DNA of 40,357 nt from Nodosilinea sp. LEGE 07298 (GTDB lineage: Bacteria; Cyanobacteriota; Cyanobacteriia; Phormidesmidales; Phormidesmidaceae). Numbering within the stretch: position 1 is the stretch's first letter; each line of letters starts with the position of its first letter. The DNA is taken from assembly GCF_015207265.1 (NCBI RefSeq), contig NZ_JADEXE010000024.1, forward strand, positions 1-40,357, read 5' to 3'. Under the pieces are notes generated by a model, which saw only the letters and a list, made by a program, of their open reading frames with translations, did not search any database and was not told the origin of the DNA. Shown in pieces: positions 34,733 to 40,357 of this stretch. Made by a program: the position numbers and the translations under genes.

Positions 34733-36499
34733 TTGAAGGCTAGCCCTACCGTGCTTGACTCAACCTCGGAGATGCCCGAAGCCGTAAGCCAGCCCGCTTC
34801 TGAATTTCAGTTTGACTCCATTGAGTCGGCCCTCCACGATCTGGCCGCCGGGAAGTCAATTGTGGTGGTCGACGACGAGAACCGCGAGAATGAAGGCGAT
34901 GTGATCTGCGCCGCCCAGTTTGCCACCCCCGACATCATCAACTTTATGGCGGTAGAAGCACGGGGGCTGATCTGCCTGGCCATGACGGGCGATCGCCTCG
35001 ACGAGCTAGACCTGCCGCTGATGGTCAGCCCTAGCGCCTTTGAAGACGAAAACGAGCAGACCGCCTTCACCGTCAGCATCGACGCCGCCCTGAGCTGGGG
35101 CGTCACCACCGGCATTTCCGCCGACGATCGCGCCCGCACCATTCAAGTGGCCATCAACCCCAACGCTCGCCCTCAAGACCTGCGTCGCCCCGGCCACATC
35201 TTTCCGCTGCGAGCCAAAGACGGCGGCGTGCTCAAGCGAGCGGGCCACACCGAGGCCGGGGTCGATCTGGCCCGACTAGCCGGACTGTACCCGGCGGGGG
35301 TAATCTGCGAAATCCAAAACCCTGATGGCTCGATGGCGCGGCTGCCCGAACTGGTCGACTACGCCAAAACCTTTGGCCTCAAGCTGATCAGCATTGCCGA
35401 TTTGATCAGCTACCGCCTACAGCACGAGCGCTTTGTGCAGCGCGAGGCCGTGGCCACTATGCCTACCCAGTTTGGCGACTTTGCCATCTATGCCTACCGC
35501 AACCTGCTCGATGGCTCAGAGCACGTGGCTATGGTCAAAGGCGACCCCGCCACCTTCGCCGACCAGCCGGTAATGGTGCGCGTCCACTCCGAATGCCTGA
35601 CCGGCGATGCCTTTGGCTCGCTGCGCTGCGACTGCCGCATGCAGCTCCAGGCGGCGCTCAAAATGATTGATGCTGCCGGGCGCGGCGTGGTGGTCTACCT
35701 GCGCCAGGAGGGGCGCGGCATTGGCCTAGTGAACAAGCTCAAGGCCTACTCGCTGCAAGACATGGGCCTCGACACGGTAGAAGCCAACGAAAAGCTGGGC
35801 CTGCCTGTAGACCAGCGCAATTACGGCGTGGGAGCGCAAATTCTCAACGACATCGGCGTGCAGAAATTTTGCCTGATTACCAACAACCCCCGCAAAATCG
35901 CGGGCATCAAGGGCTACGGCCTGGAAATGGTCAATAGGGTGCCGTTGATTATCGAGGCTACTCCCTACAACTCAGCCTATCTGGCCACCAAGGCCCAAAA
36001 GTTGGGCCATCTGCTGATGCACACCTACCTGGTAACGGTGGCGATTCACTGGCACAGCGGCAATCTAACGGTGCAAGACCGCTACCAAAAGCTAGAGCAA
36101 CTGCGCGGACTGGCCCAGTCGCTGGGGCTGATGCTGCAAGAGGAGGCCCGCCCGGTGGCGGCGGCCCTGTTTAGCCAGCCCGATATTATTGTCAATTTGG
36201 GTTTAGAAGGGGTAACAGAAGCTGGAGCCGAAACCTGGTATCGCGATTGTAATGAGCCGAAGATAAAGGCGATCGCAACCCTGCTCGACAAACTCGCCGC
36301 CTGGCCCGACGTCGATCAGCTAGCGTTCCTAATCTCCGGCGGCAGCGACCCCTTCAGCGGCCTACAGGTAAAACTCGATCGCCAGGTATTCCAGCGCGAC
36401 GGGGTGCCCACCGCCGAAACCGTCAAACCCTCCGACCTCTGCGGCAGCCTAGAAAGCCAACGCATTTACGTCTTCTCCAGCCACCTTCCAGCAGATTAA
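34733..36499 (+). CDS. ribBA: Bifunctional DHBP synthase / GTP cyclohydrolase II (RibBA) with C-terminal extension
   Basis: The protein makes both precursors of riboflavin: 3,4-dihydroxy-2-butanone 4-phosphate and the pyrimidine from GTP. The RibB part (about residues 28-235) has DDENRENEGD and RRPGHIFPLRA. The RibA part (about 240-440) has the zinc cysteines in ECLTGDAFGSLRCDCRM and the loop RQEGRGIGL. A further tail of about 145 residues follows (from about 445), as is usual in cyanobacterial RibBA; its function is unknown to me. The start is uncertain: TTG 34733 is the longest, GTG 34751 and ATG 34772 are alternatives, and none has a strong binding site. Confidence 0.93.
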   Translation: MKASPTVLDSTSEMPEAVSQPASEFQFDSIESALHDLAAGKSIVVVDDENRENEGDVICAAQFATPDIINFMAVEARGLICLAMTGDRLDELDLPLMVSPSAFEDENEQTAFTVSIDAALSWGVTTGISADDRARTIQVAINPNARPQDLRRPGHIFPLRAKDGGVLKRAGHTEAGVDLARLAGLYPAGVICEIQNPDGSMARLPELVDYAKTFGLKLISIADLISYRLQHERFVQREAVATMPTQFGDFAIYAYRNLLDGSEHVAMVKGDPATFADQPVMVRVHSECLTGDAFGSLRCDCRMQLQAALKMIDAAGRGVVVYLRQEGRGIGLVNKLKAYSLQDMGLDTVEANEKLGLPVDQRNYGVGAQILNDIGVQKFCLITNNPRKIAGIKGYGLEMVNRVPLIIEATPYNSAYLATKAQKLGHLLMHTYLVTVAIHWHSGNLTVQDRYQKLEQLRGLAQSLGLMLQEEARPVAAALFSQPDIIVNLGLEGVTEAGAETWYRDCNEPKIKAIATLLDKLAAWPDVDQLAFLISGGSDPFSGLQVKLDRQVFQRDGVPTAETVKPSDLCGSLESQRIYVFSSHLPAD

Positions 36500-36581
36500 T
36501 GAAGTGCAGCTTCATTTTGAATTCATATGGATAGTTTCCATGTAACCCACTTAGGAACCAGCTGTTATTCGAGAATCATTT

Positions 36582-37436
36582 GTGAAGAAGAAGTCTAAGA
36601 TCCTCATTGTTGCGGCGAACCCGAAGGACACAAGCCGTTTGCGGCTTGATGAGGAAGTGCGGGAAATCGAGCAAGCCCTTCACCGTTCATCCCGTCGAGC
36701 TGTATTCGCTCTAAAAGCAATATGGGCACCGCGCTCAAGAGATCTTCGACGGGCTCTACTTGATGAGCAACCACAAATCGTTCACTTTAGCGGTCACGGT
36801 GATGTGAATGGGCTAGTACTGGAAAATGCTATCGGTGATGCCGTTGTCGTTCCTCCTGAAGCGTTAAGGGATCTATTCAATCTTTTCAGCGATAGTCTTG
36901 GGTGTGTCCTACTGAACGCCTGTTACTCAAAGATCCAAGCTGCCGCCCTCGCAACAAGAATTTCGCACGTAATTGGTATGAACGAGGAAATCGCCGACGG
37001 CAGTGCTATTGAGTTCGCAGTCGGTTTTTACGATGCGCTTAGTGCCGGACGGCCAGTGGAACAGGCCTTTCAATTTGGTTGTAATGCAATTGACTTACTT
37101 GGTCGGCCTAATAAGCCTCAACCAATTATTATCTCGAGATCCGATATCCAACCAACTGGCGATGTCTTACTAAGTGCCAACCATATTTATCGTTTTAGGG
37201 CTGAGTGCCAACCGGACGTAGATAATCTACGGAGCCTTCTTAGTAGAGGCTTCGACAAAATCACTATCATCAACTCTCCGCCCTTTCCTGATGTAGAGGT
37301 AGAGCTAGAAACCGAACTCTCACTTGAGGAACTTCGGGCTGTTATGCGACGAGTCGTAGATGGTCACGTTATGGTGCAAACGGTTGCTCTACGAGATGAG
37401 TATACGGGGGAACGTGATTACGACCTCGTTACTTAA
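36582..37436 (+). CDS. Stand-alone CHAT-family (caspase-like) protease with C-terminal extension
   Basis: The 284-residue product starts with the typical prokaryotic CHAT N-terminus (ILIVAANPKDTSRLRLDEEV, about residues 7-26). The catalytic His72 lies in HFSGHGD and Cys114 in LLNACYS, spaced as in the caspase/CHAT dyad. The CHAT domain should end near 190. Residues 200-284 form a separate part ending in VMVQTVALRDEYTGERDYDL that I cannot assign; it could be an adaptor domain. The start is GTG 36582 with a weak site. The gene has no GCGATCGC, is AT-richer at third positions than ribBA, and its stop TAA lies inside a 61-base repeat shared with the downstream antitoxin gene. These point to acquisition. 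No partner (TPR, STAND, gRAMP) is in the window. Confidence 0.8.
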   Translation: MKKKSKILIVAANPKDTSRLRLDEEVREIEQALHRSSRRAVFALKAIWAPRSRDLRRALLDEQPQIVHFSGHGDVNGLVLENAIGDAVVVPPEALRDLFNLFSDSLGCVLLNACYSKIQAAALATRISHVIGMNEEIADGSAIEFAVGFYDALSAGRPVEQAFQFGCNAIDLLGRPNKPQPIIISRSDIQPTGDVLLSANHIYRFRAECQPDVDNLRSLLSRGFDKITIINSPPFPDVEVELETELSLEELRAVMRRVVDGHVMVQTVALRDEYTGERDYDLVT

Positions 37437-37503
37437 GCAGGCGATCACCCGGTTACAGACTTTGCCCGAGATTAAGCAAAATGCGATCTTTCCTTTCCTC
37501 TAA
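37428..37503 (+). pseudogene. Decayed copy of the antitoxin gene start, overlapping the CHAT gene end
   Basis: Bases 37428-37488 match 38174-38234, the 5' part of the intact antitoxin gene, with eight mismatches in 61 bases (about 87% identity) and no gap. Read in the antitoxin frame from 37432 the copy gives LKQAITRLQTLPEIKQNAIF and stops at 37503. It has no start codon of its own, because the CHAT frame and stop codon occupy the first bases. Confidence 0.75.
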
Positions 37504-37539
37504 CTTATTTTATCCATCACTATATATTGAAAGAAAACG

Positions 37540-37776
37540 ATGCTAAACATAACAATTGATGAGATTCAGCGCGATCCGCTCAAATATCTTCGCTAAGTAG
37601 AGGCAGGTGAGACGCTTGTTATCTTTAGGGCTGATCAGGCGATCGCAGAACTCAAGCCTATTGACAAAGAAAAACAACTACCACCATTTGGCTTGTGTGC
37701 TGGTGATTTTACTGTTCCAGCAGGTTTTGATACGCCTCTACCTGAAGATCTGCTAAGCGCATTTGAGGAAAAATAA
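37540..37776 (+). pseudogene. Phd/YefM-like antitoxin with in-frame stop
   Basis: The frame from ATG 37540 reads MLNITIDEIQRDPLKYLR, then TAA (37594-37596), then VEAGETLVIFRADQAIAEL and so on to a stop at 37776, 79 codons. The family has Gln at the stop position (LRQVEAGE), so one C-to-T change (CAA to TAA) explains it. The N-terminal part is a Phd/YefM-type DNA-binding fold. The last 43 or so residues (KEKQLPPFGLCAGDF to LSAFEEK) are nearly the same as the tail of the next gene and would be the toxin-binding tail. No toxin follows, so the module seems decayed. Confidence 0.8.
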
Positions 37777-37823
37777 AGATTCTGCTAAATACTCATATTA
37801 AGGATAGAGAGGTTCAAAGGATT

Positions 37824-38120
37824 ATGTCTAATTTAGAGCAAATTGAAGCGGCTATCCTTTCGTTGCCATCAAACGAGTTTGAAAGGCTAAAACTTTGGCT
37901 TCTTGTCCTAGATTATGACCGCTGGGATGAACAGCTAGAGCAGGACGTTGCAGACGGTAAATTAGATGCGCTAGCTCAGGAGGCGATCGCAGAACTCAAC
38001 CCCACCACTAAAGAAAAACAACTGCGACCATTTGGTTTGTGTGCGAGAGAATTCACTGTCCCGGCTGATTTTGACGCACCTTTACCCGACGATCTCCTGA
38101 GCGCATTCGAGGGCAAATGA
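37824..38120 (+). CDS. Orphan antitoxin-like protein with swapped N-terminal domain
   Basis: The 98-residue product has an N-terminal helical part (MSNLEQIEAAILSLPSNEFE to WDEQLEQDVADGKLDALAQE) of a type found in small cyanobacterial antitoxins. It is joined to a tail KEKQLRPFGLCAREF...LPDDLLSAFEGK that it shares with the broken Phd-like gene just upstream. The join lies at AGGCGATCGCAGAACTCAA (37981-37999), present in both genes. No toxin gene follows: the intact antitoxin/toxin pair begins 46 bases later. It may act as an anti-addiction or solitary antitoxin, or be a relic. GAGAGG lies about 12 bases before the ATG. Confidence 0.7.
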   Translation: MSNLEQIEAAILSLPSNEFERLKLWLLVLDYDRWDEQLEQDVADGKLDALAQEAIAELNPTTKEKQLRPFGLCAREFTVPADFDAPLPDDLLSAFEGK

Positions 38121-38165
38121 TGATAATGGAATTAGAACACTTGGATACCAAAAGTGAGGACAGCG

Positions 38166-38384
38166 ATGACTGAGTTACTTGAGCAGGCGATCGCACGGTT
38201 GCAGACTTTGCCTGAAAGTGAGCAAAATGCGATCGCGTCCATCATCCTGGAAGAAATTGAAGAAGAGCGGAGTTGGGATGAGTCATTTTCCCGCTCATCA
38301 GATTTATTGGCCAAACTCGCTGCCTCAGCAATGGCTGAGCATTATGCAGGGGAGACTGAAGAACTGGATCCAGATAAGCTGTGA
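38166..38384 (+). CDS. Type II antitoxin of a RelE/ParE-like pair
   Basis: The 72-residue acidic protein (MTELLEQAIARLQTLPESEQ, then ASIILEEIEEERSWDESF, ending ETEELDPDKL) belongs to the small helical antitoxin group common in cyanobacteria. The ATG at 38166 has GAGGA at 38155-38159. Its stop overlaps the toxin start as GTGA (38381-38384), so the two are coupled. Its first 61 or so coding bases are duplicated at 37428-37488. It should bind and neutralise the toxin and repress the operon. Confidence 0.8.
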   Translation: MTELLEQAIARLQTLPESEQNAIASIILEEIEEERSWDESFSRSSDLLAKLAASAMAEHYAGETEELDPDKL

Positions 38385-38650
38385 AATCCCGTACTACGAT
38401 ACAGTTCCGTAAATTGTTTGCTAATTTGCCAAACCAGGTTCAACAGCAGACTCGTTCAGCTTATCGCCATTTCCAGAAAGACCCCAGTTACCCAAGTTTG
38501 CGTTTCAAGAAGGTACATCCAGATCTGCCGATTTACTCTGCTCGCATCAACAAGAACTATCGAGTCGTAGGGCAGTTAGAAGGAGATACCGTGATCTGGT
38601 TTTGGGTAGGCTCGCACGCGGAGTACGATAGGTTGCTAGGGCAGATGTAG
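38381..38650 (+). CDS. RelE/ParE-family toxin
   Basis: The 89-residue basic protein has the RelE/ParE fold pattern: an N-terminal helix pair (FRKLFANLPNQVQQQTRSAY), then beta strands SLRFKKV, IYSARINKNYRVVGQLEGD and TVIWFWVGSHAEYDRLL. The Arg/Tyr-rich core and the ending HAEYDRLL are typical. RelE members cleave ribosome-bound mRNA and ParE members poison gyrase; this sequence does not decide between them. The start is GTG 38381, overlapping the antitoxin stop. Confidence 0.82.
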   Translation: MKSRTTIQFRKLFANLPNQVQQQTRSAYRHFQKDPSYPSLRFKKVHPDLPIYSARINKNYRVVGQLEGDTVIWFWVGSHAEYDRLLGQM

Positions 38651-38665
38651 CAGCCTAAACCCTGT

Positions 38666-38694
38666 GGTGCGTTGGGCGATCGCCACAACACACC
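38666..38694. repeat. HIP1-centred imperfect palindrome between convergent genes
   Basis: GGTGCGTTG (38666-38674) and CAACACACC (38686-38694) pair with one mismatch around GGCGATCGCC plus one extra base. It sits between the toxin gene and the converging DUF3536 gene. Similar HIP1-centred palindromes are scattered through many cyanobacterial genomes; here it may serve as a terminator hairpin. Confidence 0.55.
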
Positions 38695-38742
38695 CTACAA
38701 GCTTATTTGATTGAAGCTACCCAATTACTAACGTTGGTCCTT

Positions 38743-40357
38743 TTAGACGGGCCGACCGGGATCAAGGTGATCCAACGCCTTCAGCACCGCGCCCACATCC
38801 ATCGACAGGTATTCGCCGAGGCGTAGGATGTCGTTGACTTGGGCGCGGCTGTCGGGGCCGAGGGCCTTTTTGGAGACAGCGGCCTGTTTTAGCAAGGCGA
38901 AGACCTGGCGGTTGAGGTGCTGGTAATACAGCTCTTGGGGGTGTTCTAGTGAGAGACCCAGAGAGAGCTGCTGGCCCAGATTCACCAGCCGCCCGAGCCA
39001 ATCCACATCGGCGGCGAGGGATTCGGTGGGTGCTTGGTTGAGGATTTGCCACACCGATCGCCCGACCAGACGCTCCAGCATGGGCTTGGCCGCCGCTAGC
39101 GATAGGGATGCATTGCAGGTGCTGGCTTCGGTGGCGATCGCCTCAAGCTCATTCAAGTAGTCTTCGCCCTGGCGCAAGGGGCTAGCGGTGGGGTCGCTGG
39201 TTTCGCGTTCCAAAGATTGCAGCACCTCCATGGCCCGGTGGCTGAGGGCGATATCAGCGGCGACCTGTAGCTCTTTGGGTACGGGCAACCCGTCGCGGTG
39301 AAAGGCGCGCAGCACGCCGTAGTTGTCGCGGTAGACCTGAGCGTAGAGCTGGTCGAGGCGCAGCAGGGTGTCTTGGGAGAGCAGGCCCATCATACGGTGG
39401 CGCTCTTCGGCAAACAGGTCTTGCAGGCCGTAGGTGTGGGGCCCAAAGGCGCTGTTGATGGCGAGAATCACCTGGGCGGCGCTGGCCTGACTCAGACTGT
39501 CAAAGACTGCTGCTTTGGCGCGGGTGTAGGCGAGGCGCGATCGCATCGTGCTGATCCCGCAGTGGAAGTCCCAACCGCCCAGGTGCACTACCGCAAAGGC
39601 GAGGCTAATGCTCTCGCGGGTAATGGTGGAGGTGATTTCGACCTGGCCAACGGCGAGCGACATTGGCCCCATACGCTGGCGGCGGTAGTCGTGCTGCTTG
39701 ACGGTGTAGCAGTAGACCGTCTGCTCGCGGTGGTAGTCGGTAAATAGCGATCCCATAGCATAGTGGGCCACCACCTGCTCCAGCGAAATGCGGGAGGGTT
39801 TGACCAGCGCCTCATAGACGCCAGCCCCGGTCGCAAATTCACTGATGTTGCTGGGCGCGTGAAGCAGCCGCTTGACAAACTCCGGCTCCAGGGCGATCCC
39901 CGCCACTTCCCCGGCCAGCTCGATGGCGCGGGCGGCATAGCGCAGAATTTGGGTGCCTTCGGGGCGAGAGAGTTCTTCAAAAAACCAGCCGCAGCTGGTG
40001 TACATGAACAGGGCGTGGCGCTGCATTTCGAGCAGCTGCAGGGCGGTGACCCGCTCCACGGCTGAGAGCTTACGGGTTTGGTGAGTCTTAAAGAAAGCGT
40101 TGAGACTCTCAGGGCTGCGATCGCCCATCACGGCCACATAGGCATCTCGCGCCGCCCAGGGATCGCGCAGCAGGGCCGCTCCGTGCTCTTCGTACACGCT
40201 CGCCAGTTCGTCGCGCAGCCAGTTGAGGCTGTCGCGCAGGGGTCGCCGCCACTGTTGGTTCCACACCCCGCCGCCGCCACAGCCGCAGTCATCCTGCCAG
40301 CGATCGACGCCGTGGGAGCAGCTCCAGGCGGTGACGGGCTTGAGTTCGGCTTCCCAC
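38743..40357 (-). CDS. DUF3536 / GH57-associated protein, C-terminal part (runs off right edge)
   Basis: The frame is open from the right edge to the stop at 38743, giving at least 537 residues. The edge-proximal part reads TAWSCSHGVDRWQDDCGCGG followed by VWNQQWRRPLRDSLNWLRDE, the characteristic start of the DUF3536 domain that follows the glycoside hydrolase family 57 N-terminal domain in a group of large proteins. The GH57 part would be beyond the edge. A start at 40266 would cut this motif and is wrong. GH57 enzymes act on alpha-glucans, but the substrate of this DUF3536 group is not known to me. The C-terminal 200 residues are helical. Confidence 0.8.
   Translation of the reverse strand, partial: WEAELKPVTAWSCSHGVDRWQDDCGCGGGGVWNQQWRRPLRDSLNWLRDELASVYEEHGAALLRDPWAARDAYVAVMGDRSPESLNAFFKTHQTRKLSAVERVTALQLLEMQRHALFMYTSCGWFFEELSRPEGTQILRYAARAIELAGEVAGIALEPEFVKRLLHAPSNISEFATGAGVYEALVKPSRISLEQVVAHYAMGSLFTDYHREQTVYCYTVKQHDYRRQRMGPMSLAVGQVEITSTITRESISLAFAVVHLGGWDFHCGISTMRSRLAYTRAKAAVFDSLSQASAAQVILAINSAFGPHTYGLQDLFAEERHRMMGLLSQDTLLRLDQLYAQVYRDNYGVLRAFHRDGLPVPKELQVAADIALSHRAMEVLQSLERETSDPTASPLRQGEDYLNELEAIATEASTCNASLSLAAAKPMLERLVGRSVWQILNQAPTESLAADVDWLGRLVNLGQQLSLGLSLEHPQELYYQHLNRQVFALLKQAAVSKKALGPDSRAQVNDILRLGEYLSMDVGAVLKALDHLDPGRPV

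Follow-up and report, generated by a model that had tools for sequence, protein, structure and literature searches.

The window, i.e., the whole stretch of 40,357 nucleotides of Nodosilinea sp. LEGE 07298 analysed here, carries at positions 36582..37436 (+ strand) a gene which starts with GTG, ends with TAA and encodes a protein of 284 aa; the other strand holds no rival long ORF opposite it. The product is composed of an N-terminal CHAT cysteine-peptidase domain (residues ~5-190, 36594..37151, +), a variable linker (residues ~190-200, 37149..37181, +) and an undescribed C-terminal domain, predicted to be ferredoxin-like, which we term “RAE/HVM” (residues 201-282, 37182..37427, +). The gene lies next to ribBA (34733-36499), remnants resembling antitoxins and a ParE-like toxin gene, and no STAND, TPR or CRISPR gene or other operon partner was found beside it, in line with the preliminary description, which had presented it as solitary. 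The “foreign” composition noticed there is also evident, since the GC content is 48.5% in the gene and 56.6% in the window, and GC3 is 42% compared to 75% in ribBA. The absence of HIP1 sites, which was advanced with the same meaning, had to be rejected as a mark of foreign origin: the gene indeed has none, yet neither do 34% of all segments of the same size (855 bp) in the window, and this absence therefore carries no weight.

The gene is located in a hypervariable slot (36500..38742) stretching from ribBA to the gene at 38743-40266, for which the flanks are kept in congeners while the content differs. The flanks are conserved at 79-90% identity, and both were found in six of the seven congeners examined, the seventh (G023) lacking the right one. 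Between them, six congeners hold 1.6-4.2 kb of differing content, including genes for an amine oxidase, isochorismatase-like, HNH-containing and VapBC-like/toxin-antitoxin proteins, and others. This cargo is mixed and not clearly related to defence, and the CHAT gene was found in none of the seven congener slots.

The only homologue of the same architecture that we found is a protein of 281 aa with 62% identity from Phormidium tenue FACHB-1052 (L007:9998-10843, recovered again as G044/G397), encoded at an unrelated locus. In this P. tenue locus, an SMEK-NB-ARC-APAF1-like STAND protein of 1278 aa (L007:15388-19224) lies 4.5 kb downstream of the orthologue and has no match to the C-terminal domain. 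Homology to P. tenue stops at position 37427 (the Leu282 codon), and homology to the CHAT-less slot of a Nodosilinea congener (G045, L132) begins at 37428. Because these breakpoints adjoin, the flank at the insertion junction supplied the stop and the two codons before it (37428..37436, +), and the natural protein ends in the terminal motif of the domain. The start of a small antitoxin-like gene is duplicated in the slot (37436-37488 and 38182-38234), one copy abutting the CHAT stop and marking the same junction. Further along, there are an antitoxin-like ORF with an early in-frame stop (37540-37776), of which intact homologues occur in two congeners (L131 and L132), and a ParE-like toxin gene (38381-38650, PF24732, E 2e-14), preceded by a small ORF.

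The N-terminal part of the protein is matched by the Pfam CHAT model PF12770 (residues 9-163, E 7e-11, 42.5 bits with a curated cut-off of 24) and by the PADLOC “chat” model (residues 5-172, E 2e-20), while the match of the PADLOC SAVED_CHAT model is confined to the CHAT part (residues 5-164). The catalytic residues His72 (HFSGHG, codon 36795..36797, +) and Cys114 (LNACYS, codon 36921..36923, +) are invariant among 23 aligned rows comprising the CHAT part and its closest relatives. The sole solved structure reached by the CHAT profile was SAVED-CHAT 8tl0, with the GHG/FxGHG and NAC motifs in register: His72 falls on the FIGHG of this structure and Cys114 on its NAC. The SAVED-CHAT filament 8tl0 was also the best PDB match of the full-length AlphaFold2 model in Foldseek (E 2e-13), followed by caspases (E 6e-5 and weaker); the pLDDT of this model is 80 and drops below 50 at residues 192-198. 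The caspase-like fold of the CHAT part is thus confirmed at the level of the model, and so, from sequence comparison, is the assignment of the protein to CHAT cysteine peptidases with an intact His72/Cys114 pair, as the preliminary description had it; its proteolytic activity is predicted.

Judging by its homologues, the CHAT part itself is ordinary. Many cyanobacterial STAND/TIR proteins begin with a CHAT domain that has 50-57% identity to residues 5-190, and their C-terminal parts, as read from the sequences, resemble AAA/STAND ATPases, TIR-AAA and others. Cyanobacterial plasmids encode this core as well, in proteins with the annotations AAA-like, TIR, metallophosphoesterase, pentapeptide, WD40, SAVED, diguanylate cyclase, serine protease and EAD1, and the genome of the studied strain contains three closer CHAT paralogues within larger ORFs. 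Since the core is common to many differently built proteins, it is a modular effector unit whose control parts can be exchanged.

The C-terminal part is a genuine separate domain (residues ~201-282), recognised by the motifs FRAE, PDvev, D[GSC]HVM (DgHVMvQT), QT and YTGERdYdL distributed over about 82 residues; in its plasmid branch, YTGERdYdL is replaced by NTLERDYDL. Modelled by itself (pLDDT 82), the domain has the order beta-alpha-beta-beta-alpha, which agrees with the full-length model, where a final beta strand is added (beta-alpha-beta-beta-alpha-beta), and the modelled arrangement is ferredoxin-like. Comparison with solved structures (Foldseek, VIA-align) gave only weak matches of the superfold type, to Atx1, acetolactate synthase small subunits, PII/GlnK, IlvN and CutA (Z 6-7.4), and no PDB structure matched the domain model at E <= 0.001. 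Among the viral models, BFVD A0A6J5MGJ2, a stand-alone phage protein of 80 aa, was matched over its full length (TM 0.78/0.89, 35% identity, E 8e-7). No convincing sequence-model match to the domain was found in Pfam, PHROG, NCBIfam, PADLOC or PDB. Two candidates stayed below the cut-off: the caspase domain PF00656 for the C-terminal part (E 0.008 with the whole protein, 0.26 with this part alone) and RraB for the plasmid relatives (E 0.006-0.011). The C-terminal part had previously been described as distinct and without an assigned family, and this holds true: it has relatives of its own, and no library model matches it.

In comparison with P. tenue, 68% of residues 201-282 are conserved, while in the linker, which is modelled with low pLDDT, only one of 11 residues is kept. 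The dN/dS values for the same pair are ~0.06-0.09 in the domain, 0.14-0.16 in the CHAT part and ~0.12 overall; since the synonymous sites are near saturation, only the direction of this contrast is reliable. Both domains are thus under purifying selection, which is stronger on the C-terminal domain than on the CHAT part.

Outside the cellular genomes, the domain occurs as stand-alone phage proteins of 80-107 aa, which were reached in Flavobacterium phage 2A (ANB40962) and its kin, in Burkholderia phage FLC9 and in a dozen viral contigs. The cultured carriers infect Flavobacterium and Burkholderia, and no cyanophage copy was found. A tblastn search of plasmids revealed relatives at about 40% identity to the domain in Burkholderia plasmid pBVIE03 and in Pseudomonas plasmids. 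In pBVIE03, it forms an unannotated ORF of 89 aa; the record annotates an antisense ORF there (L079:6013-6282), while the conserved domain gene is on the opposite strand. In the Pseudomonas plasmids, it makes up the second half of 177-aa proteins a few genes away from a type IV CRISPR locus; these proteins, with their extra N-terminal part, are encoded near csf2 (L080/L081:5728-6261). Other plasmid proteins with the domain come from Pseudomonas, Rhodococcus and Janthinobacterium, and a Mycolicibacterium plasmid helicase has it near the C-terminus. Stand-alone copies were also seen beside an AAA_24 ATPase gene (L083) and, in a viral contig, ~1.4 kb downstream of a gene for a HincII-type restriction endonuclease homologue (L102:3795-4634, PF09226, E 2e-120). 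In the tree of the domain, 13 of the 18 inner branches are unresolved, and neither a single origin of the fused copies nor their derivation from phage copies can be read from it; a mixed alignment of CHAT and domain-only proteins was misaligned and left out of the results.

In cellular genomes, the domain is rare. Profile searches detected it in 3/388 cyanobacterial genomes, as a single copy in each, and in 2/395 genomes of Bacteroidota, one of these proteins having 185 aa and being encoded beside a helicase-type gene; none was detected in 301 Chloroflexota and 297 genomes of a planctomycete class, two groups searched without a positive control. Near matches to the C-terminal part in other cyanobacteria (E 0.004-0.09) were mostly 30-residue fragments in frames of ~430 aa and disappeared when the profile was used. 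Besides the two CHAT fusions, we found two Ser/Thr kinases that end in the RAE/HVM domain, one from a cyanobacterium belonging to a different family (G207, L085) and the other from a Bacteroidota genome (G639, L109). They have 313 and 316 aa, respectively, with the domain placed after the kinase part (PF00069, E 8e-26 and 8e-20), and are 41% identical to each other over the full length. The Bacteroidota gene is solitary and lies near dnaK and lipB-like genes; a plasmid search for close relatives of the kinase part returned ordinary Ser/Thr kinases only. In this small sample (two isolates for each of the CHAT and kinase fusions), the domain is therefore attached to two unrelated signalling or effector enzymes, with a solitary gene in both cases.

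These data bear on the functional proposals made in the preliminary description. It had supposed that the C-terminal part is an adaptor that finds its partner elsewhere in the cell; a partner bearing the same domain was not supported, as a single convincing copy was found in each of the four genomes that carry a fusion. It had also named two observations as speaking against an effector of a defence or cell-death system, namely scattered homologues with no defence neighbours, which is what we found, and a C-terminal part conserved in housekeeping enzymes, which was not found: the other carriers are phage/plasmid proteins and kinases, and the kinase-fused copies fit what one would expect if the domain controlled effectors. 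A role of the CHAT fusion in defence or cell death is plausible.

We suppose that the gene encodes a one-gene effector, in which a CHAT protease is gated by a phage-type recognition domain and is triggered by a component of a phage or plasmid; we regard this as a serious candidate, held with somewhat less than even confidence. The CHAT peptidase would be the “weapon” and the RAE/HVM domain the part responsible for recognition and control, which would keep the protease idle until it meets something brought by the invader. This could be either a stand-alone RAE/HVM protein of the invader, co-assembling with the fused domain, or a ligand or protein that such proteins bind. The encounter would cluster or unlock the CHAT domains, which would then cleave cellular proteins, leading to growth arrest or cell death. 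We infer that the domain gates the enzyme, and likewise its trigger, substrate and outcome; the suggestion that the tail is an invader-detecting switch of the protease comes from the occurrence of the domain elsewhere mostly as very small independent proteins on phages and plasmids. A comparable logic is known in CapRel-SJ46, a one-protein effector in which a fused regulatory domain directly senses phage proteins (PMC11578894). A more specific version, according to which the domain is a captured phage or plasmid protein acting as an integrated “decoy” on the protease (and, in parallel, on the kinase), with the enzyme triggered when the invader's RAE/HVM protein or its partner engages this copy, is possible but doubtful; if true, it would mean an immune receptor made of one gene, in which “like senses like”.

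The ferredoxin-like arrangement raises another possibility, since regulators with such folds frequently bind ligands and oligomerise. The domain may be a sensor resembling ACT or PII, which switches the protease in stress, whether caused by a phage or not, on binding a metal or a small molecule such as an amino acid or nucleotide. This is consistent with the top ranks of PII/GlnK, IlvN, acetolactate-synthase small subunits, Atx1 and CutA in both Foldseek and VIA-align, and with the conservation of the charged/polar motifs RAE, D-HVM and ER-Y; however, all these matches are weak (none in PDB at E <= 0.001, Z < 8) and the fold is very common, while such rarity and such a close link with phages and plasmids would not be expected of a housekeeping sensor, and we consider this reading unlikely. 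Decidedly unlikely, in our opinion, is an adaptor similar to effector-associated domains (EADs), by which the protease or the kinase would be brought through like-with-like binding to a core conflict system of the same cell. A small non-catalytic C-terminal domain shared by two unrelated enzyme types is the architecture described for EADs (PMC7159879, PMC8195603), and the same CHAT core occurs elsewhere in a protein annotated as EAD1. However, EADs are accompanied by a further copy on the core component (Kaur et al. 2020, PMC7159879; 2021 follow-up, PMC8195603), while in the four fusion carriers (G000, a 617-contig draft, G044, G207 and G639) no second convincing copy was found even at E <= 5, apart from a weak partial match in G044 (E 0.8); moreover, the domain is mostly borne by phages and plasmids and has no match in Pfam-A or NCBIfam.

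The occurrence of stand-alone copies on phages and plasmids, some of them beside genes of the DNA-metabolism or restriction type (the HincII-like and AAA_24 genes mentioned above), could also mean that the fused domain is a brake on CHAT and that the mobile proteins are counter-defence factors or “counterfeits” interfering with such fusions or with a cellular target of their own. This seems very unlikely to us, as the phage copies are far more widespread than their supposed target, and no case of their co-occurrence with a fusion to CHAT or to a kinase in one host was found. Finally, the gene is solitary and rare and sits in a slot full of toxin-antitoxin remnants next to an interrupted antitoxin-like ORF, as might be expected of a functionless product of decay or chance, which joined the CHAT fragment of a larger STAND protein to an ORF of a mobile element. 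This is highly improbable and is disfavoured by the conserved orthologue: the same fusion persists at an unrelated locus in P. tenue with 62% identity and a dN/dS of ~0.12, and both domains are constrained while the linker drifts.

CHAT proteases form a major class of bacterial caspase-like effectors, the triggers of most of which are still to be found. Here, the control part has about 82 residues, is represented by stand-alone homologues in cultured phages and is common to a kinase; the trigger is therefore testable with two small genes. In a broader context, an unannotated domain family ties accessory proteins of phages and plasmids to bacterial effectors.

Compared with known systems, the protein is closest in its CHAT core to the cyanobacterial CHAT-AAA/TIR-STAND proteins (PF12770), with which it shares 50-57% identity, the same dyad and the N-terminal position; however, the domain of 82 residues replaces their STAND/TIR/WD40/AAA part, and the protein has 284 aa instead of 550-1450. 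SAVED-CHAT (8tl0) represents the closest solved CHAT fold, with aligned His/Cys motifs, and, as proposed here, its CHAT is controlled by another domain within the chain, which responds to infection; unlike SAVED-CHAT and type III CRISPR CHAT effectors, however, the present protein has no SAVED domain and no CRISPR operon or neighbours, and its second domain stands at the C-terminus and has a different fold. Csx29, the TPR-CHAT protein of Craspase, also has a CHAT peptidase, while the protein studied here lacks the TPR part and a Cas7-11 neighbour. To PII/ACT/CutA and other ferredoxin-like regulators, the RAE/HVM domain is similar in general arrangement (Z 6-7.4), with no PDB match at E <= 0.001 and no sequence match. 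With the small phage and plasmid proteins, the fused domain shares FRAE, PDvev, D-HVM-QT and YTGER over about 82 residues. Like EADs (Kaur et al. 2020), the RAE/HVM domain is a small non-catalytic terminal domain on different effector or signalling enzymes, but it has no cognate copy on a core system (VMAP, iSTAND, GAP1 and so on) in the genome, is carried by phages and plasmids and matches no Pfam model. CapRel-SJ46 resembles the proposed logic in that a toxic enzyme and a domain sensing phage proteins are fused in one chain; its enzyme and sensor are unrelated to ours, and its triggers have been shown, while here the trigger is a hypothesis. The system is thus not categorically new: its effector core is known, while the control domain joined to it is undescribed, and the novelty lies in the RAE/HVM domain family and its distribution.
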